Source: Corallococcus soli
Lineage (GTDB): Bacteria; Myxococcota; Myxococcia; Myxococcales; Myxococcaceae
Length of the DNA: 64,000 nt
NCBI RefSeq assembly: GCF_014930455.1
Contig: NZ_JAAIYO010000003.1
Location: 806,001-870,000, forward strand
Direction of reading: 5' to 3'
A program made the translations under genes and the position numbers. The first letter of the stretch is position 1; every line of letters starts with the position of its first letter. The notes under the pieces were generated by a model that did no database searches, was not told the DNA's origin, and saw only the letters and a program-made list of their open reading frames with translations. This document shows, piece by piece, positions 6,651-64,000 of this stretch.

Positions 6651-7874
6651 ATGCTCGGGCGCGGTCTAGGTTGCGCGGCCGTGACTCCTTCCGTGCCCGT
6701 TCCCCGTCCGCGTCCCGCGCTCCTCACGCTCGCCTACCTGGCATTCATCAGCCTGGGGTTGCCGGACGCGGTGCTCGGCGTCGCGTGGCCTTCCTTGCGC
6801 AGCACCTTCGGCCTGTCGCAGGCGGGGATGGGAGCCATCCTCTCCGCGGCGGCGATCGCGTACTTCACCTCCGGGCTGCTCGCGGGGCGGTTGATGCGCC
6901 TGCTCAAGCTGGGCCTGCTGCTGGCCCTGAGCACGGGGCTGGTGGCCCTGGGGCTCGCGGGGTACGCGACCCTGTCGGTGTTCGCGTTGTTCCTGCTCGC
7001 GGCGTGCGCCATCGGGTTCGGTTCAGGTGCCATCGACTCCGCGCTCAACAACTACGCGGCGCAGAACTTCGGACCCCGGCACATGAACTGGCTGCATGCC
7101 GCCTACAGCGTGGGCGCGGCGCTGGGGCCGGTGCTGATGACGGCGCTGCTCACGCGGGGCGCCGGGTGGCGTTCGGGGTACGCCGTCATCGGCATGGTGC
7201 TGGGCCTGCTCGCGCTGACGTTCCTGGTGATGCGCCGGCAGTGGGATGGCCCGGCGCGGACCGGCGACGAGGCCAGCGCGGGGGTGCCCACCGCCAGCGC
7301 GGCCGAAGCGCTGCGGCGCCCCCGGGTGTGGCTGCAGATCGCCACGTTCTTCTTCTACACGGGCGTGGAGGTGACGGCCGGGCAGTGGAGCTTCACGGTG
7401 CTCACGGAGGGCCGGGGCCTGCCCACGGCGGAGGCCGGTACGTGGGTGAGCCTCTACTGGGGCAGCCTGCTCGTGGGGCGCGTCCTTTCGGGCTTCATCG
7501 TCGACCATCTGGGGTCGGTGCGGATGCTGCGCGGAAGCACGGCGCTGGCGGTGGTGGGCGCGCTGCTGTTCGCGATCCCCAGCGTGCCACCCTTCCTGGG
7601 CCTGATGCTGCTGGGGTTCGCGCTGGCCCCCATCTTCCCGGGCCTCATGTCGGAGACGCCCCGCCGGGTGGGCACCGACGTCTCCGCGCACGCGGTGGGC
7701 TTCCAGGTGAGCGCGGCCACCGCGGGCGTGGCCGCGCTGCCGAGCCTCGCGGGCGTCATCGCGGAGAAGTGGGGGCTGGCGTACGTCGCGCCCCACATCC
7801 TCGCGTGCGCCGTGATGCTGACCGTGCTGCACGGCATCCTGTCCGCGTCCGCGGACAGGCCCGTGGCACGCTGA
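6651..7874 (+). CDS. Major facilitator superfamily permease
   Basis: This protein of about 400 residues has roughly twelve hydrophobic segments and a central cytoplasmic loop (about residues 195-220), as in MFS transporters. After LTLAYLAFISLGLPDAVLG the first half has LAGRLMRLLKLGLLLALSTG, the position of the usual loop 2-3 motif. The second half begins with WLQIATFFFYTGVEVTAGQW. The EVTAGQW feature and the family of short sugar permeases (FucP/YbjJ-like) are similar, but the substrate is not evident. The start could be the ATG at 6651, which has GGAGGG almost touching it, or the GTG at 6681; neither changes the first membrane helix. It lies three bases from the convergent phosphoesterase stop. 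Confidence 0.85.
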   Translation: MLGRGLGCAAVTPSVPVPRPRPALLTLAYLAFISLGLPDAVLGVAWPSLRSTFGLSQAGMGAILSAAAIAYFTSGLLAGRLMRLLKLGLLLALSTGLVALGLAGYATLSVFALFLLAACAIGFGSGAIDSALNNYAAQNFGPRHMNWLHAAYSVGAALGPVLMTALLTRGAGWRSGYAVIGMVLGLLALTFLVMRRQWDGPARTGDEASAGVPTASAAEALRRPRVWLQIATFFFYTGVEVTAGQWSFTVLTEGRGLPTAEAGTWVSLYWGSLLVGRVLSGFIVDHLGSVRMLRGSTALAVVGALLFAIPSVPPFLGLMLLGFALAPIFPGLMSETPRRVGTDVSAHAVGFQVSAATAGVAALPSLAGVIAEKWGLAYVAPHILACAVMLTVLHGILSASADRPVAR

Positions 7875-7877
7875 GGC

Positions 7878-9248
7878 TCAGCGTCCGGCCTTCAGCTCCG
7901 CGCTGCCCAGCGTGTGCAGCCCCTGGTCCTTCCACTGGGCCAGGCGCAGGGTCGCTCCCGAAGCGTTGGGCGCGACCTCCACGCAGGTGAAGCGGTGCTC
8001 CAGCCGGGCCAGCTTCTGGCGCGAGGGCTCCAGCGCGGGGTTGCTCTGGAGCTCCTGGAGGTACGCGCTCCAGTCCTCGTCGGGCGCGTCCGGAGCCGGG
8101 AGCCGCAGCAGGGAGATCCAGGTGCCGGTGTTCGCGAACACGCGCCCGTCGCCCTCGTGCCACCGCGCCGCGTGGGTGTGGCCCATCACGACGGCCTGCG
8201 GGCCGAACTTCTTGCCCAGCCGCTCGCTCTCCGCGAGCTCGTCCCTGGCCGGTTCGAGCGCGAAGTAGTCCGTGCCCGTCCTGCCCGCGACCGTCCGGTG
8301 CAGGCGGGCGTAGAGCGCGAAGCCCGCCTTGCACAGCTTCAAGCGGGCACGGCCCAGGGCTCCCGGGCTGTCGAAGGCGTTGAGCTGCTGCGGATCCAGG
8401 GCGGACAGCAGCGCGTCCACCTCGTCGTCCTCCAGGTTCACGTCCGCGATCGCCTGCGCCAGGTGCGACTCCGCCTCCGACGCCTCGGGTGCTTCGCCCG
8501 TGGGCGGGAAGGCAAAGGCCGGAGCGACGCCCTTGTTCTGGATCAGCCGGCGCAGGAGGGTGAGGGTGCCGGATGTCAGCAGGACCTTGAGCGCGTCCGG
8601 CTTCACGCCGAGCGCGACCATCACCGCCCCCTGGAAGTCTGGCTTCAGCAGGTCCATGTACCGCATGCGGTGCTGGTGCTTGAGCGGGTTGAGCAGGCTC
8701 TTCACCAGCACGGAGCCCGGCGGGTAGCGGAAGAGGCTGTCGCGCTTCGGGGACAGGAGCGAGTCGTAGTCGATGCGGTTCGCCACGTCGGTGTGTTCGC
8801 CGTGGGTGACGAGCACGCGGGCGCCGCCCACGTCCAGTTGGAGGGGCGCGGTGCCATCCCGGAACTCCAGCCGCGAGGCCACGTGGGCGGGCTGGGCGAG
8901 CGCGGCGCGCACCACGGCCTGGACCTCCGGCAGGGCGAGCTCCAGGTCGTGGTTGCCCACCACCATCGTGGCCTGGCCGCCCCCGGCCAGCACCCGGCCC
9001 AGGGCCTGGAGTGACGGCGCCGTCTGCGTGGAGTTCACGAGCGCCCGGGCCTGTTCGACGGTGCGCTGGAGGTCCACCGCGAGCGGGTCGTCGTTGAGCA
9101 GGAAGTCGAAGCTGTCCCCGTTGAGCACCACGTGGGTGGGCATGTCGGCGAACGTGTCCAGCAGGGCGGGCAACTCCGCGGCGCCCGCGAAGATGTCGTA
9201 GGGCCCGCCGTTGCCCAGGTGGAGGTCGCTGAGAATGAGCGTTCGCAT
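7878..9248 (-). CDS. Calcineurin-like metallophosphoesterase
   Basis: This 456-residue protein has the full dimetal phosphoesterase set: LILSDLHLGNGG at the N-terminus (D-x-H), VVLNGDSFDFLL (GD-x-x-D), MVVGNHDLEL (GNHD), VLVTHGEHTD, and VMGHTHAARW (GHTH). It is longer than minimal members, with a mainly helical insertion of about 200 residues between VTHGEHTD and GHTHAAR. No signal peptide is visible, so it is probably cytoplasmic. It lies downstream of the cysteine-peptidase-like gene on the same strand with 15 bases between, and the two very likely form an operon. The substrate could be a nucleotide, a nucleic acid or a phosphoprotein. Confidence 0.85.
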   Translation of the reverse strand: MRTLILSDLHLGNGGPYDIFAGAAELPALLDTFADMPTHVVLNGDSFDFLLNDDPLAVDLQRTVEQARALVNSTQTAPSLQALGRVLAGGGQATMVVGNHDLELALPEVQAVVRAALAQPAHVASRLEFRDGTAPLQLDVGGARVLVTHGEHTDVANRIDYDSLLSPKRDSLFRYPPGSVLVKSLLNPLKHQHRMRYMDLLKPDFQGAVMVALGVKPDALKVLLTSGTLTLLRRLIQNKGVAPAFAFPPTGEAPEASEAESHLAQAIADVNLEDDEVDALLSALDPQQLNAFDSPGALGRARLKLCKAGFALYARLHRTVAGRTGTDYFALEPARDELAESERLGKKFGPQAVVMGHTHAARWHEGDGRVFANTGTWISLLRLPAPDAPDEDWSAYLQELQSNPALEPSRQKLARLEHRFTCVEVAPNASGATLRLAQWKDQGLHTLGSAELKAGR

Positions 9249-9263
9249 GGGGTCATGCTCCTT

Positions 9264-10721
9264 TCAGGGAATCACTTGCAGGTCGGTGTGGCGGACGCGC
9301 ACGGCCGGATCGCCGAGCATCACGTAGTTGCGTGCGTCGTTGCGTTCGATCCACCGGTGGATGAGCTCGCGGGGCGTCATCTTCCCGTTGGGCGTGTTGG
9401 CATCCAGGTGGGTCAGCAGGAGGTTGTTGAGATTGGAGTAGCGGTCGCGGAAGTCGCGCAGCGCATAGCCTACGGGTTGGCCGGACATGATCAACGCGAG
9501 CGAGTTGTTGAAGGGCTGGACGTTGGACTGCACCAGGTTCAAGGGCTTGATGGAGAAGCCCCAGGCCCGCTCCACATGGCCAATGACCGCCAGCGCGCCT
9601 CCGCCAGGGTGGGACAGCAGCCTCCGGGGCAGGGCCGCGACGAAGGCGGCCTGGGCGAGCGCTTCGCCCCGGCGGGTGGGGTCGAGCGGGAACTCGTCAT
9701 GGGAGGGCGTGCCGATGCCGAAGCAGGCGAAGAAGAAGGCCACCAGCCCGTGGAGCCGGGCGTCGTCCTGGATGTCCGCCGCCGACACGTAGTGCGCGGG
9801 AGACATCGCGCCGAAGCCGCTCCAGTCCTGGCTCAGCAGCGCCCCCTGGTCCGTCAACTGGCGTGGATCCTTCGCGGGAAAACCGAGGCCGTGAGAGGCG
9901 GTGAAGAGCACGGCCGGACGCGACTCCCGGCCGTGGAGCGCGCCGAGCAGCCACTCCTTGGTCGCGTCGTCTTCGATGGCGGCGGTGTTGGTGTAGCGCA
10001 GCTTCGCGGCGATCGTCTTCGTGTAGTGGGGTTTCTCGTTGGCGGGGGCGCCCCGGGCGAGCGTCGTGACGAGCTCGTCCGCGCTGAGGTGCGTGGAGCG
10101 GTCGCCCAGGTGCTTCGGGGCCCACCAGCTCACCTGTCGGTGGTTGGGGACCGTGGCCGCCGTCTCGTAGGCGACGACGCTCTCCGCGTAGCGCATGTAC
10201 TCCGCGGGGGTTTCGAAGGAGAGGCGACCGACGTAGTAGGAGAGGGACAGCGCGTGCTGCACGTCGTACGGGATGTCGTCCGGTCCGCCCACGAGGAGCA
10301 GGTAGGCCGGCACGCGCGTGGGCTCCACGTCGCCGACGCCGACCGCGTAGCGCGCCAGGAACTGATGGGATGTCTCCCCGGGCTGGTAGGTGAGGACGTG
10401 CATCCGGTCCGCTTCCACGAGGCCGCGACGGTGGGCGATGAGCGGCTCCAGGCTCTTGCGGAGTTCCTCTGACGCCTGCGCGTGGAACACCACGCCCCAG
10501 CCGGCCTGGACGGGGTTCGTGGGGTCCACGTCGAAGGGCAGGAAGGTCTTCGCGCCCATGGGCACGACCTGGAGCCACTGCTTCCACGCGTCGAAGTAGG
10601 GGGCATCCCCTTTGGGGTCAGCCACCTCCGCGGCCGCCGGGAGTTCGACGGGCGGCACCAAGTACTGACCGGTGACGCCGTCGATGCCGTTGAGGACCAG
10701 CGGTTCTTCGGGATTGGACAT
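9264..10721 (-). CDS. Clan CD cysteine peptidase-like protein (C25/CHAT-like)
   Basis: This 485-residue protein has no signal peptide. A His in AVLFTASHGLGFP (about residues 270-282) is followed some 60 residues later by a Cys in GLVAFFFACFGIGTP; both end predicted beta strands, as the catalytic His and Cys do in gingipains, CHAT proteases and caspases. The C-terminal YVMLGDPAVRVRHTDL resembles the (Y/L)GDPxxRL ending typical of C25-type domains. The N-terminal 200 residues include PAYLLLVGGPDDIPYDVQ, another C25-like feature. No death-fold or TPR domain is present. The metallophosphoesterase gene follows within 15 bases. The fold call is moderately strong; the activity and target are not known. 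Confidence 0.65.
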   Translation of the reverse strand: MSNPEEPLVLNGIDGVTGQYLVPPVELPAAAEVADPKGDAPYFDAWKQWLQVVPMGAKTFLPFDVDPTNPVQAGWGVVFHAQASEELRKSLEPLIAHRRGLVEADRMHVLTYQPGETSHQFLARYAVGVGDVEPTRVPAYLLLVGGPDDIPYDVQHALSLSYYVGRLSFETPAEYMRYAESVVAYETAATVPNHRQVSWWAPKHLGDRSTHLSADELVTTLARGAPANEKPHYTKTIAAKLRYTNTAAIEDDATKEWLLGALHGRESRPAVLFTASHGLGFPAKDPRQLTDQGALLSQDWSGFGAMSPAHYVSAADIQDDARLHGLVAFFFACFGIGTPSHDEFPLDPTRRGEALAQAAFVAALPRRLLSHPGGGALAVIGHVERAWGFSIKPLNLVQSNVQPFNNSLALIMSGQPVGYALRDFRDRYSNLNNLLLTHLDANTPNGKMTPRELIHRWIERNDARNYVMLGDPAVRVRHTDLQVIP

Positions 10722-51106: not shown

Positions 51107-53893
51107 TCACCTGGGAGCCCGGGCCCCCAGGTGCCCCGAGGGCCGCCGCGTGAAGGCCCCCAGCGCGTCCAGCAGGTCCTCCGTCATGCGCTCCGCGCTG
51201 GGATGCCAGGGCGTGGTGAAGCGCGCGTCCATGCTCGTCTGCCGGATGGTGGACAGCCACGCGTGCACCTCGCGTTCGGAGTAGCCCGCGCTCCGCGCCG
51301 CCTCGTGCAGCAGGGAGTACTCCCGGAGGAGGAAGGTGGAGAAGGTGATGGGGTCGTCCGCGCCCACCGCGATGGGCACCGGCGGCGGCGCCCCCGCTTC
51401 GGATCGCGGCGGGAAGAGGCGCAGGATGGGGTGGTTGCGCAGGTCCAACAGGTTGCCGATGAGCAGGTTGCTGGAGGGATTCACCTCCACGACGGTCCCC
51501 CGCGCCCCCACGTACCGGCGCAGCGCGTCCTGCGCGGCCCGCAGCGCGGCCACCTCCGCCGCATCCAGCGGGATGTCCACCAGCTGCTGACCGCGCCGGA
51601 ACACGGGCTCGTCCTCGCGGTACGCCTCGATGAGCTCCTGGACGCGCTGGGAGTCGCGCACCCGGACCCAGTCCAGCCGTCGGGAAGCCCGGCTGAAGGC
51701 GTCCAGCCCCACTCCCACGCCCTCCTGCGCCAGGGGCGGACACCAGAGGTTGTGCAGCACGTGGTGGGCTTCCGCCAGGACGTGTGGCGCGATGCACCTG
51801 CCGAAGATGCCCTCGGACAGCTCGCGGATGAGGTTCTCCACCTGCGGCGGCCGTCCCGGCGGGGTGTCCACGCTCAGGCCCGGGGGCAGCCGGTAGCCGC
51901 CGTACAGGCGCCACTCGAAGACCAGGTCCCACAGCCGCTCCTCGGCCGGCATCATCACCGCGCCAACCGACTCCGCCCACGTCCCTGGCTCCACCCCCAG
52001 GGACGTGGCGTGTCCCAGCCGCCCGCCCCGGTGGTCCAGCAGGTAGTGCAGGCATTCGTAGATGCGGCGCAGCCCCTCCATGAGGTGCCGGTAGTCCTCG
52101 CCCACGTGGCCCGTGAGCTGGAGGGGGGGGGCGCCCCGGGCCGCCGGCCGGACCGCGGCGCGGGCGGCCTCCCACCGCACGTAGCGGTACAGCGGCGCCA
52201 GCACCCACGTGGGCACGCTCAGCTCGTCCGACGCGACGTCCAGCCCCCGCACCAGCCAGAGCGACAGCGGCACCGCCCGCAGCAGGTCCACCAGCGCCTC
52301 CACCCGCGTCGACTGCGAGACGAAGTAGTCCGCGTAGCGGCCTCCCAGCCGGATGAGGCCCTCCGGAACCGGCTCCGCGTACGTGCCCTGGGCATGCGCG
52401 GGCGGCAGGCCCTCCCTCCAGTGGCGCTTGGGGTCCCGCGCCTTGAGCAGGTGCAGCACCAGGCCGAACTCCGGCTGACGGCCGTCGCTGGTGGCCCGCC
52501 CCACGCGCGCCAGCACCCGCTGCCACGAGCGCGTCAGCCCCCACAGCTCCTCCGCCATCTGGATGGAGGTGTCCATGAGGCGGGTGCGCACCTCCAGCGC
52601 GGCGATGGGTTGATCGCCCCCCGCCACCGCGTAGGAGATCTCCGCGCGCACGGCGTGCAGGGGCCGCTTCATCGCGCCCAGGCGATCATAGAAGCGGATG
52701 AACCACTGGAGGCCCGCGGTCAGCGGCCGCTGCACATAGGTGCGGTAGCTCAGGCAGCGCACCCGCTGCACCTGCCAGAAGAGGCGCTCGAAGTGCGGAT
52801 CCGGCGTGCCGGCCTCTTCCATCCGCCGCATCCACCGCAGCCCGTAGCGCACCAGCCAGCGCTCCCCCGCGTTGGGCGTGTGCAACCCCATCCGCAGGGC
52901 GATGGGATCGCACCGCCGCCACACGTCGTCGAGGGTCTCTGGAGCTTCGGCGCCGCCGCGGGCCGCCAGCGGGTGGAGATCCCCGTAGAGCTCGCGCAAC
53001 TCGTCCACCTCCGGCAGGACTTCCAGGCGAGCGCGCGAGAGCGCCTCCAGCGTCCGCTCCAGCACCCGGCGGCGCTGGGGCAGCCAGACGGACGACTCGC
53101 GCAGGCCCGCCACGAAATCCAACAGCGGCCGCTTCCCACCTCGCAGGATGACCTCCGCCAGGACGCAGCGGGACACCGCGGCCGCCAGCAGCCAGCGGAG
53201 CATCGTCCCGCCCTCGCCGAAGACGAGCCCCGGTCCCGACAGCAGGCGTGCATCCAGGGACGGGTCCGCGATGGCGGACAGCAGCGAGGTCCACAGCAGC
53301 GGGAAGTCCATGCCCGCGTTGACGTGGTGGTGGACTTCCGTCACACCCCGGTCCAGCAGGTGGCGCATCAGCAGCGGCGGTTCAATGTCCACCCGCGTGG
53401 GCGGCGGCTCCACCGGCACGGCCGACATCAACAGGTCCTCGGGCAGGGCGAAGGTGAGCCAGCGGTAGTGCGTGACGGCGTCCACCGCGCCGGCCTCCGT
53501 GTCCTGCGCCACGACGGTGACCCCGGGCCGGCGCTCCAGGTGGGTGTCCGCCAGGTGCACCAGGTAGCTGGCCATGGACACCCGCCGCGGCGGATCCCGC
53601 TGGCCGCGGATGTGCCGGCGCGAATCGAACCAGAACACGTCCCTGACGGCGATGAGGCGATCCAACGACCAGCCGCTGGCGTGCTCCGACAGGGTCTTCT
53701 CGCAATCGCGCCAGAGCGCCCGCGTGGGGCCCGCGTCGTGTCCCTCCAGCGAGGGCACCAGCTCCGTCAGCGCGTCCCTGAAGGCCTGGAGGCTGGTCAG
53801 CGGGAAGCAGGCCACCTCCGCGCGCACGTAGGCCTCCGGAACGCGGCGGGGGGCCAGGTTTCCCTGGGACTGGCGCGGTCCCTCAGTGCCCAT
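51107..53893 (-). CDS. rdrB: RADAR adenosine-deaminase-like protein RdrB
   Basis: This 928-residue protein has the adenosine deaminase active-site set spread over a much enlarged frame: VTEVHHHVNAG near 183 (H-x-H), LTGHVGED (H-x-G-E, catalytic Glu), GGRLGHATSLG (zinc His), VEVNPSSNLLIGN, HPILRLF and IAVGADDPITFSTFLLREY (Asp-Asp). Housekeeping deaminases are about a third of this length; the large size together with the linked ATPase identifies RADAR. RdrB forms large shells with RdrA and deaminates adenosine in RNA or adenine nucleotides during phage infection, stopping growth. Its ATG at 53893 overlaps the rdrA stop by 11 bases. Confidence 0.88.
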   Translation of the reverse strand: MGTEGPRQSQGNLAPRRVPEAYVRAEVACFPLTSLQAFRDALTELVPSLEGHDAGPTRALWRDCEKTLSEHASGWSLDRLIAVRDVFWFDSRRHIRGQRDPPRRVSMASYLVHLADTHLERRPGVTVVAQDTEAGAVDAVTHYRWLTFALPEDLLMSAVPVEPPPTRVDIEPPLLMRHLLDRGVTEVHHHVNAGMDFPLLWTSLLSAIADPSLDARLLSGPGLVFGEGGTMLRWLLAAAVSRCVLAEVILRGGKRPLLDFVAGLRESSVWLPQRRRVLERTLEALSRARLEVLPEVDELRELYGDLHPLAARGGAEAPETLDDVWRRCDPIALRMGLHTPNAGERWLVRYGLRWMRRMEEAGTPDPHFERLFWQVQRVRCLSYRTYVQRPLTAGLQWFIRFYDRLGAMKRPLHAVRAEISYAVAGGDQPIAALEVRTRLMDTSIQMAEELWGLTRSWQRVLARVGRATSDGRQPEFGLVLHLLKARDPKRHWREGLPPAHAQGTYAEPVPEGLIRLGGRYADYFVSQSTRVEALVDLLRAVPLSLWLVRGLDVASDELSVPTWVLAPLYRYVRWEAARAAVRPAARGAPPLQLTGHVGEDYRHLMEGLRRIYECLHYLLDHRGGRLGHATSLGVEPGTWAESVGAVMMPAEERLWDLVFEWRLYGGYRLPPGLSVDTPPGRPPQVENLIRELSEGIFGRCIAPHVLAEAHHVLHNLWCPPLAQEGVGVGLDAFSRASRRLDWVRVRDSQRVQELIEAYREDEPVFRRGQQLVDIPLDAAEVAALRAAQDALRRYVGARGTVVEVNPSSNLLIGNLLDLRNHPILRLFPPRSEAGAPPPVPIAVGADDPITFSTFLLREYSLLHEAARSAGYSEREVHAWLSTIRQTSMDARFTTPWHPSAERMTEDLLDALGAFTRRPSGHLGARAPR

Positions 53894-56597
53894 GGCCTGG
53901 GTCCGCCTGGAGCTCCTGCACGGGAGACACCCTGCGCAGCGCCTCCAGCTCCAGGTGGTCGCCCTCCTGGTCCATGACCCGGAACCACGTCCGCACCACG
54001 GTGTCGAGCCAGTCGTAGTACAGGCCCGTGAGCTGGCCTCCGTCCGTGCCCAGGTGGCGGCGCAGCGCCTGTGACGCGCCGGAGCGCCCCACCGCGGCGC
54101 GCACCATCTGTTCGCGCAGCCGCGTCAGGCGGGGCCCATGGTGCTCCCAGTAGGCCACCAGTTCGTCCCAGTCCTCGTTCTCGCCCGCCTCCCCGGACTG
54201 CCAGCGCAGCAGTTCGCTGAGGGCGGGGGCCGGCGCGAACTCCGGCAGCACCAGCAGGGGCAGCGCGTTCTGCAACCACACCCGGGCCGTCCACAGCCGA
54301 TCCGAGCCCACGCTGTTCGTCCGGATGTCCTCCACGAGCTTCGCCACCGTGCCGCGCACCCGCTGCTCGTAGGGCTCCAGCGCGCTGGCGCGCTCCCGCG
54401 CCAGGATCACCGCCTCCACCCCCCTACCGTGTGCGTCGCCCCAATCCCATCCACCCAGCTCCCGGCCCGACACCGAGCAGATGTTCTCCACCCAGGCCGC
54501 CTGGATGAAGCGGTGGTGGGAGCCGACCTTCATGCGCGAGTCCTTCATGTTGTCGACCTTGAAGAACCCGTCCGCCGTCCGCTTCAGGAACGCCTTCCAC
54601 TGCGCGGTGAAGATGGCGAACTCGACGAAGGTCTTCCAGGTGGGAAGGCTCCACCAGCACTCTACCTGGACGAGCGGTTCGTGGGGCGCGGCCTCCACCC
54701 ACAGCTCGTGCAGCGTCACGACCAGCTCCGGGCTCATCTCGAAGGGGGTCACGTCCAGGTTCAGCACCCGGGGCGGTTCGAACAGCATCAGCGCGTCGTG
54801 CAGCAGCATGAACCAGCCGGTCACGTTGCCGGGCAGGGGCACGCTGTGGCCCGGCCGGTCCAGGTCGCTCAGCATCAGCACCACGTCATGGAAGTGCCGC
54901 AGGTGCAGCTCGCTGAGGAGCAGCCGCTGCTCCGTCTTCGCGGCGCCATTGCCCGGTCGCCCCGCGTGCGGCCACTCCAGGACGTCCGACAGGGTGGTCC
55001 GCTTGGAGCGGCGCACCGGCTTGCCCGTCAGGTCCAGGAAGATGAGCCCCTTTTCGTCATGGCGGAGGATGCGGTTGTTCAACTGCTGGCTGGCCCAGGC
55101 CGGCAGGTCGCTTTCGTCAATGGCGTTGCGCAGCATCTCCGTGACCACCCGGACGGTGCGCTCCCCATCCGCGACGGAGGGCTCTTCCGAGGAGGCGCGG
55201 GTGCTCCAGAGTTCGCGCCGGGCGGCGTGCCAGAGGTCCTGCAGGGTGCGCGCGGGCAGGTGGAGGGCGAGCTTGCCCGCAGGGGTGAGGATGACCTTGC
55301 GCAGGGGCGCGTCCCGCGCATCCCGCGTGGCCAGGCGGTAGGTCGTCTTCACCGTGTCGGAGAGCCGGGGCGCCAGGTTGATGAGGTCCGCGAAGGAGGT
55401 CAGCACCTGCGTCTTCTCCCGCGTCGGGGCGCAGGGCAGCCTGAGCTGCTCCAGCAGGCTGCCCAGCGTCTGCGCTCCGTCCTCCGCCTCCACCCCCAGC
55501 GGGCGGAAGTCCCATGCCTTGTAGGGATCCACGGGGCCCAGGTTGATGCGGTAGCTGGGGGGCAGCGCGCGGCGCAGGGTGGTGGCGGACTGGCGCCGGG
55601 CGATGGAGAGCGTCTCGTCCTGGCCCACGACCCCGATCCCCGCCTGCCCGGAGAGGATGAGCTCCTTCTGGAAGGAGCGCTCCATGAAGAGCTGGAACTC
55701 CTGGTGGCCCGCGGCCAGCACGAACCAGAGCCGGGGGCTGGCCACCATGCGGGTGAGCTTCACGATGTTGTGGAGGTGTTCGATGCTGCGGTCCACGTTG
55801 TCGATGGGCAGCACGAGGATGACCTGCTCCCCCCTGGCGGTGCCGAAGCGGGGCAGGGACAGCGTCTTCGCCACGTTCTCCATGGCCCCCGCGAAGCGCT
55901 GCTGGAAGTTGGCGTAGATCTCCGCGGCCTTGATCTGCTGCTCCGCGCGCGCGCGCGTGTCGGTGGTCGACGCGCTGTCCTCCCACATGAACGAGGCATC
56001 CCGGATGAGGTGATCCAGCTTTCCCCAGGCCTCCTCCGCGCTCTCCTCGAGGATGGAGGAGGACCACCTGCCATGCCCGCCTCGCGCGGCCGTGCCCTCC
56101 TGGGGCGCATCCAGGGCCGCGCGCACGCGCACCAGCAGGGTGGCCAGGAGGTTGGCGCCCGGGGGCACCGGCTCCAGGTCGAGCGGCTCCAGCCAGACGA
56201 CGCGCCCCTCGATGCGCTCGAGCGTCGTGCACAGGTCCCTGCGCATCGCCTCCGGCCCCGAAGCCACCGCCTCGCGGGCCTCCGCCTCCAGGCGCGCGCC
56301 CGGCTTCAGCCCGAGGAAGGCCCTCCAGTCCCGCAGGGCCTGGACGGCGCTGAGCAGGACGGTGGTCTTCCCCGCGCCCCGGGGACCGGAGATGAGCAGG
56401 CTGGTGGAGAGGTGCTCGTCCCGGACCTCTCGCTCGCCCTGGCTGCATCCGCAGGCGGCCTCCAGCCAGGACAGCAGCTCGTACAGCCCCCGCTGCGTGG
56501 GCTCCAGCAGCTCATCCCAGGGGAAGGCCCTGGCCTCGGGGAGGGGCGTGGGCACGTAGTGGTGCGTCTTGCCCGGGAGGCTCGTTTTCGGGTCCAT
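53883..56597 (-). CDS. rdrA: RADAR ATPase RdrA
   Basis: This 904-residue protein is a large P-loop ATPase: Walker A LLISGPRGAGKTTVL near residue 72, a Walker B-like VILVLPIDNVDRSIEHL near 260, then LWFVLAAGHQEFQLF. A Trp-rich C-terminal half (WVEAAPHEPLVQVECWWSLPTW, GGWDWGDAHG) has no obvious domain. Linkage and overlap with the deaminase gene identify it as RdrA, which forms a heptameric cage delivering substrate to RdrB. I chose the ATG at 56597, where the conserved DPKTSLPGKTHHYVPTPLPE begins; the open frame upstream is low-complexity shadow. No ribosome binding site is evident. Confidence 0.88.
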   Translation of the reverse strand: MDPKTSLPGKTHHYVPTPLPEARAFPWDELLEPTQRGLYELLSWLEAACGCSQGEREVRDEHLSTSLLISGPRGAGKTTVLLSAVQALRDWRAFLGLKPGARLEAEAREAVASGPEAMRRDLCTTLERIEGRVVWLEPLDLEPVPPGANLLATLLVRVRAALDAPQEGTAARGGHGRWSSSILEESAEEAWGKLDHLIRDASFMWEDSASTTDTRARAEQQIKAAEIYANFQQRFAGAMENVAKTLSLPRFGTARGEQVILVLPIDNVDRSIEHLHNIVKLTRMVASPRLWFVLAAGHQEFQLFMERSFQKELILSGQAGIGVVGQDETLSIARRQSATTLRRALPPSYRINLGPVDPYKAWDFRPLGVEAEDGAQTLGSLLEQLRLPCAPTREKTQVLTSFADLINLAPRLSDTVKTTYRLATRDARDAPLRKVILTPAGKLALHLPARTLQDLWHAARRELWSTRASSEEPSVADGERTVRVVTEMLRNAIDESDLPAWASQQLNNRILRHDEKGLIFLDLTGKPVRRSKRTTLSDVLEWPHAGRPGNGAAKTEQRLLLSELHLRHFHDVVLMLSDLDRPGHSVPLPGNVTGWFMLLHDALMLFEPPRVLNLDVTPFEMSPELVVTLHELWVEAAPHEPLVQVECWWSLPTWKTFVEFAIFTAQWKAFLKRTADGFFKVDNMKDSRMKVGSHHRFIQAAWVENICSVSGRELGGWDWGDAHGRGVEAVILARERASALEPYEQRVRGTVAKLVEDIRTNSVGSDRLWTARVWLQNALPLLVLPEFAPAPALSELLRWQSGEAGENEDWDELVAYWEHHGPRLTRLREQMVRAAVGRSGASQALRRHLGTDGGQLTGLYYDWLDTVVRTWFRVMDQEGDHLELEALRRVSPVQELQADPGHGH

Positions 56598-57080
56598 GGA
56601 GAAGGATAGGGAGACCGCGTCGCGACGCGCATCACCCGGAATCAGATCGCACGTCCGCGCGTGGTAGCTGGCAGGTGTCCCCGTGCGCTCGTCCCCCTGT
56701 CTGTCGCCGGTTTCCGGGAGCGGGCTGCCGGGCCGCGCCCTGGAGCACGAAACGGACGAGGGCCGCGTCGTCGGGATACCGCCTCGCGGCGAGCGCCCAT
56801 CGGACCGCGGAAGATTCGTGAGTCGCTTGGACGCCCCCCGCCACATCCGGTGTTCCAATTTTTTTCCCATCCCCGGAAGCCGGGGACCGCAGTCCGCTGG
56901 TTCAAGCTCGCGCGTGTCCAGCCCGCCTCGCGAGGGCACTTCGCGGGACACGCGCCAACACCCGCGCTGGACCCGGGCCCTGTATCCGCCGATCGCGTCT
57001 GGCTCTATCAGTCCGCCTTGAGCAGCAGGCCGGGACTCTTCTCACCTGCCGCTCTATCCGCAGCGCCAGGAGGCAGCTCA
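56598..57080. other. 483-base divergent intergenic region
   Basis: This separates rdrA (leftward) from the repeat-protein gene (rightward) and must contain both promoters. No gene is convincing on either strand. A small hairpin, TCCCCGG-AAG-CCGGGGA, lies at 56870-56886, with a T7 run at 56859-56865 before it on the + strand, the wrong order for a terminator. No protein-coding or RNA family was recognised. Confidence 0.55.
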
Positions 57081-58358
57081 ATGAGCAAGGAACAGTTTCC
57101 CATGCAGGGGCAGCAGATGTTTGGTGAAGCCATCAAGGCCCGCATCGCCGACGCGGTGCACGAGCGCGTCGTCTCCGGGTTGGAGGAGCGGATCGGCATG
57201 GAGATTCGTGAGCGCGTCGGCGAAGCGGTCCGCGGCGTGTTGAGCGAGCGTGCGATGAACATGCAGCAGGGGGAGGGTGGCGGGCAGCCGTTCGACGCGG
57301 AGCAGATCGCCGACGCCGTCCACAACCGCCTCACCGACAACATCCGCGAGCGCATCACCAGCGGCGTGCACGAGCGCGTGCGCGAGGTGCTCCGGGAGCG
57401 GTTGGGCGAAGCGCTGCGCGGCGCCCTGGCCGAGAACATGATGAACCTCCAGCAGGGCGGCCAGCTCGACACGCCCCGCATCGCCGAGCGCGTGCGCAAC
57501 AGCCTCGAGGACGCCCTGCGCGACAGGCTCGGCTACGTCGTGCGCGAGCGCGTCCGCGACGCCCTTCGCGAGCGTCTGGGGGATGCGCTGCGCACCGCGA
57601 TGATGGAGCGGCGGATGGGCATGGAGGGCTTCGGGCCGATGGACTCCGAGCGCATCGCCGACGCCATCCGCACCCGGCTCGCCGACACCCTGTCCGAGCG
57701 GATCCACGCCGCCGTGCGCGAGCGCGTCCGTGAGGCGTTGAAGGAGCGCCTGGTGGAGACGCTGCGCTCCGCGCTGTCCGAGCGCCGGATGCAGGGCTAC
57801 GGCCAGATCGACCCGGAGCGCATCGCCGACATCGTCCGCGAGCGCATCGCGGATGGCATCCGCGAGCGCGTCCAGAGCGGCCTGCGCGAGCGCATGCGCG
57901 ACACGCTGCGCGAGCGGCTGGGCGACGAGCTGCGCACCCGGATGAGCGAGCGCCCCATGGGCTTCGCGGGCGTCCAGCGGCAGGGCGTCGGCCAGATCGA
58001 CCCGGAGCGCCTGGCCGAGGTGCTCCGCGGGCGCCTGGTCGACACCCTCCACGAGCGGCTGTCCATGAACCTCCGCGAGCACCTGCACGAGGCGCTGAAG
58101 GAGCGGATGGCTGACGCCATCCGCGAGTCGATGGCCTCGATGGGCCCCACGATGCGCGGCGGGTTCGGTGAGCAGGCCATGGGCGGCTTCCAGACGCAGG
58201 GGCCCGGCCAGGTCGACACCGAGAGCATCGTGGCCGCCGTCCGCGATCGCGTGGGCGAGGAGCTCCGCGAGCGCATGGCGGACGTCGTCCGCGACCGCGT
58301 CAGCGAGGCGGTGCGCAAGGAGCTGAAGAACGGCCCCGCGTCCCAGCCCCTGGCCTGA
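57081..58358 (+). CDS. Seven-repeat charged helical protein of unknown function
   Basis: This 425-residue protein is built almost wholly of seven repeats of about 50-70 residues. Each has a helical part of about 44 residues made of 11-residue units such as DPERIADIVRERI, then ADGIRERVQSG, then LRERMRDTLRERLGDELR, followed by a short Met/Gly/Gln-rich linker. Repeats begin near residues 9, 71, 129, 187, 243, 306 and 378. Arg and Glu dominate and alternate with Ile/Val/Leu, giving strongly amphipathic helices like those of apolipoprotein/LEA-type proteins. There is no signal peptide or cysteine. AGGAGG at 57068-57073 is a strong ribosome binding site, suggesting high expression. Function unknown; a membrane- or carbon-surface-binding, or stress, role is conceivable. 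Confidence 0.85.
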   Translation: MSKEQFPMQGQQMFGEAIKARIADAVHERVVSGLEERIGMEIRERVGEAVRGVLSERAMNMQQGEGGGQPFDAEQIADAVHNRLTDNIRERITSGVHERVREVLRERLGEALRGALAENMMNLQQGGQLDTPRIAERVRNSLEDALRDRLGYVVRERVRDALRERLGDALRTAMMERRMGMEGFGPMDSERIADAIRTRLADTLSERIHAAVRERVREALKERLVETLRSALSERRMQGYGQIDPERIADIVRERIADGIRERVQSGLRERMRDTLRERLGDELRTRMSERPMGFAGVQRQGVGQIDPERLAEVLRGRLVDTLHERLSMNLREHLHEALKERMADAIRESMASMGPTMRGGFGEQAMGGFQTQGPGQVDTESIVAAVRDRVGEELRERMADVVRDRVSEAVRKELKNGPASQPLA

Positions 58359-58400
58359 CGAGCAACGCGGCCCGGGCCGGACAACGGCCCCATGGACGCA

Positions 58401-58437
58401 GGGCCCGGACTTCCGCTCCAAGCGGGAGTCCGGGCCC
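58401..58437. terminator. Strong hairpin between convergent genes
   Basis: GGGCCCGGACTTCCGCT at 58401-58417 pairs with AGCGGGAGTCCGGGCCC at 58421-58437, a 17-bp stem with one G-T pair and a CCA loop. It lies between the converging repeat-protein and outer-membrane-protein genes and probably ends transcription from both sides. Confidence 0.75.
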
Positions 58438-58476
58438 GTCCCCCTTCGCATCACGCTCCGACGCGAAAGCCCAGGC

Positions 58477-59187
58477 TCAATAGCGGATGCCGAAGTTGAC
58501 CGGGATGTACTGGCCGTCGGCCTTGCGCGAGTCGCCGCCGGGCACATCGAAGCTCTGGCCGAAGATGTAGTGGTAGCGCCCCTCCACGTAGAAGCGGAGC
58601 TCCCCGTTGATCTTCAGGGTGACGCCGACGCCGCCGCCGAGACCGAAGTCCGTGCTGCTGCGCGAGCCGACAAGCTCCGCCACCGGCACCACGTCCGTGG
58701 CGCAATAGTACAGCCACGGGTCGCAGTACGGGATGGTCGCGACGCCCGACAACTGGAGCAGCTCCACCTGGCGGTAGTACAGGCCCGGCCCGGCGATGAC
58801 GTAGAAGCCGAAAGTGCTGCGGGGAATCACATTCCAGACGGCGTTGAGGCTGCCGTACTGCATGTAGTGGTTGCCGTTGATGCCAGTCCCGGTGAGCACG
58901 TCGGACCGGATGTCATAGCCGCTGTAGAAGTACTCCGCCATGACGCCGAAGCTCCGATGGAACTGGTAGCCGGCGCCCAGTTGGAAGCCGCCGCCCGTCT
59001 CGAAGCGGTCCCCCGCGTCGGAGATCGGGAAGGAGAGGCCGCCGCCCACGTTGAACATGAAGTGCCGCTCCGGAACCTCCATTCCCTGCATCGGGAAGGC
59101 CACCGGGTCCGACACCGTCTGGGCACGCGCGCCCCCAGGGACGTTGAACGCCAGCAAGGCAAGGGGAAGCAACGTGTTCAATCGCAT
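58477..59187 (-). CDS. Outer-membrane beta-barrel protein
   Basis: This 236-residue protein has a signal peptide (LNTLLPLALLAFNVPGGARA) and then alternating amphipathic strands rich in aromatic and Gly residues: HFMFNVGGGLSFPI, GGFQLGAGYQFHRSFGVMAEYFYSGYD, FGFYVIAGPGLYYRQV, TDFGLGGGVGVTLKING and FYVEGRYHYIFGQSF, ending in PVNFGIRY with the terminal aromatic typical of barrel insertion. It is like OmpW/OmpA-type eight-strand barrels. Two Cys (CDPWLYYC) lie in a loop and could form a disulfide. I chose the ATG at 59187, next to the signal peptide. Ligand unknown. Confidence 0.85.
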   Translation of the reverse strand: MRLNTLLPLALLAFNVPGGARAQTVSDPVAFPMQGMEVPERHFMFNVGGGLSFPISDAGDRFETGGGFQLGAGYQFHRSFGVMAEYFYSGYDIRSDVLTGTGINGNHYMQYGSLNAVWNVIPRSTFGFYVIAGPGLYYRQVELLQLSGVATIPYCDPWLYYCATDVVPVAELVGSRSSTDFGLGGGVGVTLKINGELRFYVEGRYHYIFGQSFDVPGGDSRKADGQYIPVNFGIRY

Positions 59188-59294
59188 GACGACCGCCTTT
59201 GGGCACCGGACCGCGTGGTGCCGGGAGCGTGGGGATGGGCCGCCTGTCCGCACACCGCTCCTTCAGGGGGGGCCGGGCAGGGGGGCACACGCTC

Positions 59295-60527
59295 TCACTG
59301 CGGCACGGGTGCGAGACCTGTCGTGCTCAGCACGCGCCGGGTGTGGAGGGCGATCATCGCCTCTTCATCCGTGGGAATCACCCAGGCGGAGACGCGGCTG
59401 CCGGACCGGGTGATGCAGGGGCCTCCGCGAGCGTTGGCCTCCTCATCAAGCTCCAACCCGAGCCAGCTCGCGTCGCGACAGACCCGCTCGCGAATGGGCG
59501 CGGAGTGCTCGCCAATGCCGCCCGTGAACACCACTGCGTCCAGGCCGTGCAGCGCCGCCGCGAGCGAGCCCAGCTCGCGATGGATGCGATAGACGAACAA
59601 CTCCAGCGCCTCGGCGGCGGCGGCACTGGAGGCGCCGAGCAGCTCGCGCATGTCGCTGGACTCGCCGGAGACGCCCAGCAGGCCGGATTGCTGGTAGAGG
59701 AGCCGCTCCAGCGCGCGCGCGTCCATGCCGTGCCGGTCCATCAGGTAGAGCAGGACCCCGGGATCCAGGGCGCCGCAGCGGGTGCCCATCATGAGCCCAT
59801 CCAGGGCGGTGAGGCCCATGGTCGTCGCCACGCTTCGACCCTGGAGCAGGGCGCACATGCTCGCGCCGTTCCCCAGGTGCGCCACCACCGTGCGTCCTTC
59901 GGCGGCCCCGGGCGCCGTGCGCGGCAGCGTGGAGGCGATGTATTCGTAGGAGAGGCCATGGAAGCCGTAGCGGCGGACGCCCTCGTCGGCATAGCGGCGG
60001 GGCAGGGCGAAGGCCTGGGCCACGGGGGGCTGGGTGCGGTGGAACGCGGTGTCGAAGCATGCGACCTGTGGCACCGCTGGCGCCGTCCGTGTGACAGCGC
60101 GAATCGCCTCCACGCAGTGGGGTTGGTGCAACGGCGCCAGCGGAATGAGCGCTTCCAGCTCCGCCAGGGTCGCCGCGTCGACGAGGGCGGGCCTGGAGAA
60201 GCGCATGCCGCCATGGACCACCCGGTGGCCGGTGGCCGCGATCCGGTGCCCGCCGAGGACGCCCTCCCGACCCCACGCGAACAGGAAGTCGGTGGCGCCC
60301 GTGTACCCGAGCTGCGTTCCGGGGGCCCAATCCTTCTGGCTGATGATGGCACCGTCCGCGTGCGCGACGAACCGCGGACGGGTCGACAGCTCCTCGAACT
60401 CCCCCCGCAGGAGGAGGCGGAGGGGCTCCTCATCCAGGAAGACGGAGAACTTCAAGCTCGAAGAGCCGGCGTTGAGCACGAGCAGCGCGTCCGGCACGCC
60501 TACTGTTTTGGACATCCGCCGCGCCAT
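59295..60527 (-). CDS. ackA: Acetate kinase
   Basis: This 410-residue enzyme makes ATP from acetyl phosphate and ADP. It has LVLNAGSSSLKFSVF, TGHRVVHGG, ACFDTAFHRTQPP, RRYGFHGLSYEYI, VAHLGNGASMCAL and VVFTGGIGEHSAPIRERV, all the acetokinase signatures with the catalytic Asp and Arg. GGGGAG lies about seven bases ahead of the ATG. It follows the phosphoketolase gene by 13 bases, so it takes the acetyl phosphate that phosphoketolase makes. Confidence 0.95.
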   Translation of the reverse strand: MARRMSKTVGVPDALLVLNAGSSSLKFSVFLDEEPLRLLLRGEFEELSTRPRFVAHADGAIISQKDWAPGTQLGYTGATDFLFAWGREGVLGGHRIAATGHRVVHGGMRFSRPALVDAATLAELEALIPLAPLHQPHCVEAIRAVTRTAPAVPQVACFDTAFHRTQPPVAQAFALPRRYADEGVRRYGFHGLSYEYIASTLPRTAPGAAEGRTVVAHLGNGASMCALLQGRSVATTMGLTALDGLMMGTRCGALDPGVLLYLMDRHGMDARALERLLYQQSGLLGVSGESSDMRELLGASSAAAAEALELFVYRIHRELGSLAAALHGLDAVVFTGGIGEHSAPIRERVCRDASWLGLELDEEANARGGPCITRSGSRVSAWVIPTDEEAMIALHTRRVLSTTGLAPVPQ

Positions 60528-60540
60528 GCGTGCTCCCCTC

Positions 60541-63012
60541 TCAGTCCGGCCAGGTCCAGTCGGCGATTTCAGGACGATCCTTGCCGTGCTCGTGCGCGTA
60601 GGCCAGGTTGTCGAGGATGGCGTTCCGCATCTCCTCCTTCAGGTGGCCTGCCTTTGCTTGCATCCCCGCCACGCGATCGATGACGTCGATGACCAGGTGG
60701 AAGCGGGACGTCTCGTTCAGGATCGCCAGCTCGAAGGGCGTGTTGATGTTGCCCTTCTCCCGGTAGCCATGCACGTGCAGGTCTTCGTGGTCGATGAAGC
60801 GATAGGCAAGCTTGTGGATGAGCGAGGCGTAGCCGTGGAAGCTGAAGATGATCGGCTTGCCCGGCGGGAACAGGCTTTGGATCTCCCGTTGGGTGGACCC
60901 GTGCGGATGGTCCGCCGACGACTGGAGCTTGAACAGGTCGACGATGTTGACGAAGCGCAGCTTCAGGTTCGGTGCACGCGCGCGCAGGATGGAGGCGGCG
61001 GCCAGGGCCTCCTGCGTCGCGACGTCGCCGCAACTGGCCATGATGACATCCGGCTCCGCGTCCTGGTCCGTGCTGGCCCGCTTCCAGATGCCGAGCCCCT
61101 TGGCGCAGTGGGAGATGGCCTCGTCGATGCTGGTGAACTGCAGGTGCTTCTGCTTGTCCGCGACGACGACGTTGACGCAGTCGGTGCTGCGCAGGCACTG
61201 GTCCGCCACCACCAGCAGCGTGTTGGCGTCCGGAGGCAGGTAGATGCGCGTGACCGAGCCGGACTTGTTGGTCACCAGGTCGATGAACCCCGGGTCCTGA
61301 TGTGAGAACCCGTTGTGGTCCTGACGCCACACCGTCGAGGAGAGCAGGATGTTCTCCGAGGCGACGGGTGCCCGCCAGCTCACGTGGTTCTTGCTGATGT
61401 CCAACCACTTGGCGTGCTGGTTGAACATGGAGTCGATGACGTGGGCGAACGCCTCATACGTGTGGAAGAGGCCGTGGCGCCCGGTGAGCAGATACCCTTC
61501 GAGCCAGCCGAGCAGCGTGTGCTCCGACAGCATCTCCATGACGCGGCCGTCCCGCGCGAGCTCGCCCCCGTCGAGGTCCTCTGGCAACAGGTTCGCCATC
61601 CAGGCCTTCTTGCTCACCTGGTAGATGGCCTGGAGCCGGTTCGAGGCGGTCTCGTCCGGGCCGAAGACGCGGAAGTTCGTCGGGTTGTCGCGCATGATGT
61701 CGCGCAGGAATTCGCCCAGGGGCTTCGTGTTCTCATGCAGCGTGGTGCCGCGCGTGCCGACCTTGACCGCATAGTCGCGGAAGTCGGGCAGCCTGAGCGT
61801 CTTGCGAAGCAGGCCGCCGTTGGCGTGTGGGTTCGCGCTCATCCGCCGGGGCCCCTTGGGTGCAAGCGACCTGACCTCCGGATTCAGTCTCCCCTGCGCG
61901 TCGAACAGCTCCTCGGGACGGTAGCTGCGCATCCAGTCCTCGAGCGCCTTCAGGTGCGCCGGGTTGCCCCGCACGTCAGCGAAGGGGACCTGGTGTGAGC
62001 GCCAGGTGCCCTCCAGCTTGTGCCCATCCAGCTCCTTCGGACCGGTCCAGCCCTTGGGCGAGCGCAGGACGATCATGGGCCAGCGCGGACGCGTCGGGGT
62101 GTCCGTCTGCCGTGCCGTCTTCTGCAGGGCGCGGATCTCCTCGACGGCGCGCTCCAGGGTCTCCGCCATCTTCTGGTGCATCTGGGCCGGGTCGCTGCCC
62201 TCGACGAAGTAGGGCTTGTAGCCGTAGCCGACGAACAGGGACTCGAGCTCCTCCGGGCTGATGCGGGCGAGGATGGTCGGGTTGGCGATCTTGTACCCGT
62301 TGAGGTTCAGGATGGGCAGCACGGCGCCGTCCCGCGCGGGGTTGAGGAACTTGTTCGAATGCCAGGCTGTCGCGAGCGGCCCGGTCTCTGCTTCGCCGTC
62401 ACCCACGACGCAGGCGACGATGAGGTCAGGGTTGTCGAAGGCCATGCCATACGCGTGGGAGAGGCTGTAGCCGAGCTCGCCGCCTTCATGGATGGAGCCC
62501 GGCGTCTCCGGGGTGACGTGGCTGCCGATGTGACCGGGGAAGGAGAACTGCTTGAAGAACTTCCGCATCCCCTCCTCATCCGGGCTCTTGTCCGGATAGA
62601 CCTCCGAATAGGTGCCCTCGAGATACGCCGGCCCGAGCACGCCCGGGGCGCCGTGGCCCGGCCCGGCCACGAAGACGACGTCGAGGTTTTGTTCGACGAT
62701 GAGCCGGTTCAGGTGGACCCAGACGAACGAGAGCGCCGGGCTCGCGCCCCAGTGGCCGAGCAGCCGATGCTTCACGTCCGTCGACTCCAGGGGCCTGTGC
62801 AGCAGCGGGTTGTCCTGGAGGTAGATCATCCCCACCGCGAGGTAGTTGCATGCGCGCCAGTACGCGTCCATCAACTCCACTTCCCTGGCGGTGAGCGGTC
62901 CTCCCCCCTGGGTCCGCTCCCTGGCCGGCGTGGAGGGCCCCTCGCCTTGCTCCCTGGCGGACCATGACAGCCCAGACTCCTCGGATGATCCCGTCCCTAT
63001 CGGGTGTGCCAT
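60541..63012 (-). CDS. xpkA: Phosphoketolase (xylulose-5-P/fructose-6-P)
   Basis: This 823-residue thiamine-diphosphate enzyme cleaves xylulose-5-phosphate (and possibly fructose-6-phosphate) with phosphate to give acetyl phosphate. Family blocks are [54 protein letters not shown] (cofactor motif), [24 protein letters not shown]-like [13 protein letters not shown], and [13 protein letters not shown] chose the ATG at 63012, with GGGAGA upstream. The first 40 residues are a polar extension before [13 protein letters not shown]. It sits between the aldolase and acetate kinase genes. Confidence 0.95.
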
Positions 63013-63025
63013 GACGTGTCTCCCA

Positions 63026-64000
63026 TCAGTGTTGGGTGTGGAGTGTTGAGTCGGGTTCGTGGTGGATGGAGGGAGGCTCGGCCGCCCCGGCGAAGCCCGC
63101 TTCGCCTTCCATGTCGCCGCTGTAGCGGCCCAGGGCCGCCGCGCTGTCGCACCCGGCGCGGTGGTGGAACATCCGCTGGGCGGCGGGCACTTGCTCACGC
63201 TGGCCCCGCCAGACCTCCATCGCCTCGTCCTGCAGCGCGCGTCCGTAGGAGAAGCTCAGCTTCCAGGGCTTCGGGCCGCCCAGCGCATTGATGGCGTTGA
63301 GGTGCTCGGTGGCCAGGACCGCGTCTTGTCCGCCGGACAGGAAGACGACCCCGGGGACCGCGGGCGGCACATGGCGCGTCAGGGCGCGCAACGTCGCCTC
63401 CGCCACCTCGTCCACCGACGCCTGCCTCGCGCAACGGAGACCCGCGGTGACCATGTTCGGCTTGAGCAACATCCCTTCCAGGGACACCTGCGCGTCGAAG
63501 AGTTCGTTGAAGACCGCTTGCAGCACGCGCCCCGTCACGTCCTCGCACTGCTCGAGCGCGTGCGCTCCCTCCATCAGGACTTCGGGCTCCACGATGGGCA
63601 CCAGGCCCTGCTCCTGGCAGAGGGCGGCGTAGCGCGCGAGCGCGTGCGCATTCGCGTGGATGCACTTCGCGGTCGGCAGCCCGTCGCGGATGATGAAGAC
63701 CGCGCGCCACTTGGCGAAGCGCGCACCGAGCTCGTGGTACTCCTCGAGCCGTGCGCGGAGCCCATCGAGCCCTTCGGCGACGAACTCGCCCGGCGCGCCG
63801 GCCAGGGGGTGGACGCCCGTGTCGACCTTGATGCCGGGGATGATGCCGCGACCCACCAGCAGCTCCAGCAGCGGGATGCCTGTCGAGCTGTCCTGCCGGA
63901 TCGTCTCGTCCTGCAGGATGACACCGCCGATGAACGCGGCGATGTCGGGCGTACTGAAGAGCATCTCGCGGTAGGCGCGGCGGCTGTCCGAGGTCGACTC
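63026..64000 (-). CDS. Class I fructose-bisphosphate aldolase, N-terminus beyond the window
   Basis: The frame is open through the right edge, so the first residues are missing. The visible 324 residues match eukaryotic-type class I aldolase: [63 protein letters not shown] and the Schiff-base Lys in [30 protein letters not shown] follows. The C-terminal tail is long and hydrophilic (about 30 residues past GRYSG). It cleaves fructose-1,6-bisphosphate to triose phosphates and heads the phosphoketolase operon, 13 bases before the next start. Confidence 0.93.

Follow-up and report, generated by a model that had tools for sequence, protein, structure and literature searches.

In the genome of Corallococcus soli, within the window studied here (the whole 64,000-nucleotide stretch at positions 806,001 to 870,000 of contig NZ_JAAIYO010000003.1), a gene encodes a protein made largely of repeated amphipathic helices, which raises the question of what periodicity underlies the repeats and what fold and role such a protein might have. 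The original prediction, drawn from the sequence alone, took the repeats to be built of 11-residue units.

The predicted open reading frame proves to be a real gene, with its own start, a Shine-Dalgarno sequence, homologues and purifying selection on its pattern (Table 1). GC content by codon position over 57081-58358 (+) is gene-like (0.76/0.44/0.955), and several Corallococcus relatives have an open frame that starts exactly at the equivalent of the ATG at 57081. An overlapping minus-strand ORF (57078-58547) was rejected as a gene on account of its codon-position GC (0.91/0.49/0.76), which is not gene-like, and the antisense matches that other genomes give mirror the RER codons. The genome of C. 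soli itself contains one locus by profile search, a second match being the antisense mirror of the same place. The strong ribosome binding site that had been proposed is found in the window but is not general, most Corallococcus relatives having GAGG only, not AGGAGG. Judging from the invariant columns of the upstream alignment, the gene is probably driven by its own promoter.

Table 1 Positions in the window of the tetrad-repeat gene, its upstream signals and the seven helices
Feature	Position	Strand	Remarks
Upstream block GACCCGGGCC..GTATCC-N18-TATCAG, promoter-like	56960..57015	+	Columns invariant across the aligned upstream regions of 14 loci
Shine-Dalgarno AGGAGG	57068..57073	+	7 nt before ATG; GAGG part conserved in Corallococcus relatives
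Tetrad-repeat protein gene	57081..58358	+	425 aa plus stop; ORF and relatives' ORFs starting at same ATG
Helix 1	57120..57263	+	aa 14-61, 12 tetrads; AlphaFold helix 8-62
Helix 2	57306..57449	+	aa 76-123, 12 tetrads; AlphaFold helix 73-124
Helix 3	57480..57611	+	aa 134-177, 11 tetrads; AlphaFold helix 131-178
Helix 4	57654..57785	+	aa 192-235, 11 tetrads; AlphaFold helix 189-237
Helix 5	57822..57953	+	aa 248-291, 11 tetrads; AlphaFold helix 245-289
Helix 6	58011..58142	+	aa 311-354, 11 tetrads; AlphaFold helix 308-352
Helix 7, short terminal unit	58227..58334	+	aa 383-418, 9 tetrads; AlphaFold helix 380-417

The division into seven helical blocks was predicted correctly, six of them being 44-48 residues long and the last 36. 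Inside each block, the unit is four residues, with the consensus [LVI]-R-[ED]-[RA] (hydrophobic-Arg-Glu-Arg/Ala), in unbroken runs of 12, 12, 11, 11, 11, 11 and 9 tetrads; the second block, for instance, reads IADA-VHNR-LTDN-IRER-ITSG-VHER-VREV-LRER-LGEA-LRGA-LAEN. The averaged hydrophobic spectrum of the protein, taken over 40-residue segments, peaks at a period of 4.02, where the power is 6.3; the power at 11/3 is 1.2 and that at 3.5 is 0.5, and both 11/3 and 11 are at background. The peak lies at 3.94-4.07 in 14/14 homologues tested and at 3.92-4.07 in the individual helices of the window protein, so that the 11-residue unit has to be abandoned in favour of a period of 4.0. In 2000 full shuffles, the longest single tetrad run had a mean of 5.7 and a maximum of 13, compared to seven runs of 9-12 in the native protein, and among 182 predicted genes in the window and ten other loci, more than two amphipathic tetrad runs of at least seven were found in homologues only. 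An apparent helix of 24 tetrads in a Myxococcales MAG (L058) was discarded, half of the run being GGQM/GGQF linker; at about 7755-7900 of that locus a GGQM/GGQF/GGQY tetrapeptide linker precedes the helices.

The linkers of the window protein contain G (23%), Q (18%), P (10%) and M (9%), which agrees with the Met/Gly/Gln linkers described earlier, Pro being added. The protein is hydrophilic (GRAVY -0.68, Gly 9.4%) and R/E-rich with a net neutral surface, like charges recurring at i/i+4 and 8 residues and opposite charges at i/i+3, 5 and 7. Since no hydrophobic stretch in the 425 residues exceeds six, no signal peptide or membrane anchor is visible, as had been foreseen. The whole-helix hydrophobic moment is 0.37-0.46 at 90 degrees vs. 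0.03-0.24 at 98-100 degrees; because the stripe period of 4.0 departs from the helix turn, a helix taken as a whole has no one side that would face a membrane. At the DNA level, TRF reports weak 12- and 24-bp repeats in the gene.

Substitutions among homologues argue that the hydrophobic pattern is under purifying selection. Core positions are 98% ILVMFWY in 13 homologous sequences, and core substitutions between the window protein and its relatives stay hydrophobic in 9/9, 10/12, 11/13, 16/19, 16/18 and 33/35 cases, where random non-synonymous single-base changes would give 51%; the last count is the comparison with Myxococcus (p=4e-8). A simple count gives a dN/dS of about 0.5, an estimate that is unreliable at 95% GC3 and suggests moderate constraint only. 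Comparison of the units with those of Pyxidicoccus gave 0.61-0.92 on the diagonal (unit i vs. unit i) and 0.25-0.64 off it; each unit is thus most like its counterpart and the helices keep a set order, as they would in a single folded domain.

The profile search that had been suggested as a check showed that the protein in its native order matches no Apolipoprotein, LEA or coiled-coil family above cut-off. Apolipoprotein (PF01442) is absent from its best 25 families at E<=1, and Apolipoprotein PF01442 and LEA_4 PF02987 gave no match at E<=0.001 in 15/15 family members. When the same residues were put in hendecad order inside the helices, they matched Apolipoprotein A1/A4/E PF01442 at 6e-5, and in heptad order they matched FlaC, Snapin, laminin and golgin coiled-coil models; the models would therefore have seen hendecad or heptad periodicity if present. 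Together with the low moment at 98-100 degrees, this speaks against the proposed analogy to apolipoproteins, LEA proteins and synuclein, whereas it remains true that this is a helical repeat protein belonging to no characterised family. A search by sequence for a known solved structure yielded nothing convincing, the best being a match of 6e-4 to a CopG-type chimera.

Two families gave weak matches, GvpQ (NF041670; E 3.7e-10 and 40.1 bits, with a curated cut-off of 100 bits) in 15/15 family members and DUF445 (PF04286; E 6.9e-8 and 33.2 bits, with a curated cut-off of 33.8) in 14/15, the homologue in genome G009 lying just above the DUF445 cut-off at 34.3 bits. Membership in either family was rejected because scrambles preserving the tetrad classes give matches of similar or slightly lower quality, with 7e-9 to 7e-6 and 26-36 bits for GvpQ and 2e-9 to 2e-4 for DUF445, where one scramble reached 38.2 bits, above the cut-off. 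The matches reflect a shared pattern, not homology. Both vanish on full shuffling, and the Pfam matches are also lost in a looser scramble in which the Arg/Glu positions are mixed as well, so the order of polar residues contributes. Since scrambles that keep the tetrads are still picked up by the DUF445 and GvpQ profiles, tetrad helices may form a wider, unnamed class. PF00741 (GvpA) had no match in the genome, and control genomes gave none either.

The nearest named relatives of the gene belong to Corallococcus species (71-83% identity). Homologues occur in 13/15 other genomes of the genus and in 12/27 genomes of a Myxococcus-like genus; being missing in over half of the latter, the gene is dispensable. 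Phylum-wide, 34/195 genomes and 8/90 genera have a homologue at E<=1e-10, including Myxococcus, Pyxidicoccus and a few other Myxococcota. To judge by these searches, the family has so far been seen only in Myxococcota, with a patchy presence among myxobacteria, genomes beyond the phylum having been reached only through a pattern-limited scan. Distant homologues in other families keep the tetrad pattern at 35-48% identity, and the number of units is 4-5 in three loci (L039, L040 and L057) and 7 in Corallococcus and Myxococcus. Plasmids, phages and viral contigs gave no match to the family, on which ground a mobile or phage origin was rejected. One genome (G121) carries two copies, at C52:167561 and C46:560734, and another (G095) a shortened copy (L085, about 9330-9920) with N- and C-terminal units only, in different frames, reflecting either decay of the gene through deletion or a mistake in the assembly. 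A record titled Comamonas sp. KCTC 72670 (BNCN01000003.1, L056) is about 89-90% identical to Myxococcus xanthus over most of 17 kb and bears the tetrad-repeat gene in the same place; from this identity it looks mislabelled or contaminated.

In the window, the gene lies between a divergent RdrA-like gene upstream and a convergent outer-membrane beta-barrel gene downstream. Neighbouring genes vary between species and the GTATCC-N18-TATCAG block stays conserved; changing neighbours and a kept upstream element fit a stand-alone, monocistronic gene that works without fixed partners. The RdrA-like gene belongs to an overlapping pair, 51110-53893 (-) and 53883-56600 (-), resembling the RADAR anti-phage system: the RdrB-like adenosine deaminase has a PADLOC match of 1.8e-34 with Pfam A_deaminase below cut-off, and the RdrA-like ATPase matches NCBIfam RdrA at 2.6e-6, far below cut-off. 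A functional link was rejected, since the window and G009 (L044) are the only places where the pair accompanies the repeat gene. The beta-barrel gene (PF13505) lies at 58477-59253 (-) in the window, tail-to-tail with the repeat gene, and likewise in G009 (L044 12-800) and in a distant family (G035, L039 7877-8623); it is not adjacent in most other loci. In two unrelated lineages (L086 8592-9176 and L040 9759-10313), genes for DUF308 (HdeD-like) membrane proteins are found close to the repeat gene, which could be chance. Further along the window, adjacent genes recognized by eye from their translations as acetate kinase and phosphoketolase (59295-60527 and 60541-63198, -) suggest a phosphoketolase pathway. 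The M. xanthus homologue (AM003) is flanked by topoisomerase IV genes on one side and type II secretion genes on the other, their functions being named by eye. Its identity with the M. xanthus sporulation proteins MspA/B/C was considered, and no sequence or locus tag ties them to it; in the literature searched no paper was tied to the homologue.

How could helices with a hydrophobic residue at every fourth position pack? An undistorted helix has 3.63 residues per turn, the expected upper limit of coiled-coil periodicity is about 3.9, with 4.0 listed outside the accessible range, and the most extreme known example is 3.8, in YadA (Hartmann et al. 2016, PMC4786415). The family shares R/E-rich amphipathic helices and a stripe period above 3.63, and hence a need for right-handed winding, with right-handed coiled coils (hendecad 11/3, pentadecad 15/4, YadA 19/5 = 3.8), but it differs from them in a period of 4.0 over 9-12 consecutive tetrads. 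Its helices are thus all above 3.63 residues and, at 4.0, outside the range up to about 3.9, and the heptad period of 3.5 is not represented. By simple arithmetic, a helix on a 4.0 stripe would have a right-handed supercoil of +9.2 degrees per residue with a pitch near 59 A, where heptads have -3.7 degrees and 147 A. Apolipoprotein A1/A4/E (PF01442) and group 3 LEA proteins likewise have repeated amphipathic helices, high charge and no anchor, but the 11-residue pattern is theirs and is absent in the tetrad family (moment at 98.2 degrees 0.07-0.24 in the window protein). E. coli YjiN (DUF445; L096 10967-12247, -) has a weak average period of 4.04, although with only short runs (6-7 at most) and hydrophobic ends, whereas the window protein is without membrane segments.

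AlphaFold2, with a shallow alignment of 15 rows, gives seven uninterrupted helices at a mean pLDDT of 69 and a pTM of 0.50; most of residues 73-290 are at pLDDT 80-95 and helices 1, 6 and 7 are poorly placed, and a five-repeat homologue has helices at lower confidence (pLDDT 61). The central four helices are predicted to form a bundle. Their best structural neighbours are long antiparallel four-helix bundles, 4uos and dynamin/Mx stalks, at Z 9-11, which is ordinary among helical bundles and below the level meaningful for them. The helical bundle 4uos, a parametric design, is right-handed. The resemblance of these stalks and designed bundles to the predicted centre, an antiparallel bundle of four long helices, is not matched in sequence (2-14% identity, no sequence similarity), and the window protein has no GTPase. 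Foldseek gave no match against the PDB at E<=0.001.

The reading that we prefer, with a probability of roughly 0.4, is that of a soluble, cytoplasmic, stand-alone scaffold protein, folded as an antiparallel multi-helix bundle that may assemble further. The seven helices would fold back on each other through flexible Gly/Gln/Met/Pro linkers and be held together by the stripe of every fourth residue. As this stripe drifts rightward by about 9 degrees per residue, the helices would have to supercoil tightly to the right, underwind locally or pair with different partners at different points. The surface of the protein, rich in Arg and Glu and neutral overall, has opposite charges at i/i+3 and like charges at i/i+4, which would favour further side-by-side assembly. 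We infer the handedness of the bundle (probably right), its oligomerisation and the scaffold role. The same charge pattern, with opposite charges also at 5 and 7 residues and like charges every 4 and 8, would suit a filament-forming cytoskeletal protein, the units of which associate between molecules into right-handed ropes or sheets, and a variable number of repeats would be allowed in such an open-ended assembly. That the seven units are individual and keep a fixed order suits one closed domain better, and we regard a filament as unlikely.

Less probable still, and about equally so, are two other roles. A coat on a membrane, lipid body or polymer granule, its amphipathic helices lying flat as in apolipoproteins, phasins or synuclein, would be in keeping with long amphipathic helices without an anchor, and short stretches could bind a surface, 18-residue segments reaching a best moment of 0.46-0.57 at 100 degrees. 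Over whole helices, however, there is no single lipid-facing side, the polar faces are very rich in Arg/Glu, and no Apolipoprotein or LEA model matches the native protein, the Apolipoprotein model doing so only after hendecad re-ordering. The carriers are spore-forming myxobacteria with a patchy distribution, which would fit a LEA/hydrophilin-type desiccation or stress protectant, disordered in water, helical on drying and shielding proteins or membranes, as would the repeats and the hydrophilic, Gly- and R/E-rich composition; yet the strict conservation of L/V/I/M every four residues argues for a packed core, there is no 11-mer motif, and AlphaFold predicts confident helices in the centre. 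It is also conceivable that slippage expanded GC-rich 12-bp repeats and that the RERL protein is a meaningless by-product of their translation, to which the weak DNA repeats, the dN/dS near 0.5 and the loss of the gene in some species could be attributed. This is very improbable given that all seven units are kept across genera with overwhelmingly hydrophobic replacements at core sites, that the start, Shine-Dalgarno sequence and N terminus are conserved, and that distant homologues retain the pattern.

The family is thus an uncharacterised and structurally odd variant of helical repeat proteins. It is possible, although we would not bet on it, that this is the first natural family in which precisely every fourth residue is hydrophobic over 9-12 consecutive tetrads of continuous helix and which packs as a right-handed bundle beyond the limit of about 3.9; its supercoil would then be over twice as tight as in heptads, unless it accommodates the strain by undescribed means. 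Because the period of 4.0 is kept strictly under selection, a structure of the family would make the coiled-coil limit testable, and, if the proposal is true, protein designers would gain a new, tightly right-handed module. For profile annotation there is a caution, as tetrad helices alone can produce DUF445 and GvpQ matches. In Corallococcus and Myxococcus, which form a model group for the study of development and predation, an uncharacterised conserved gene gains a defined starting point.
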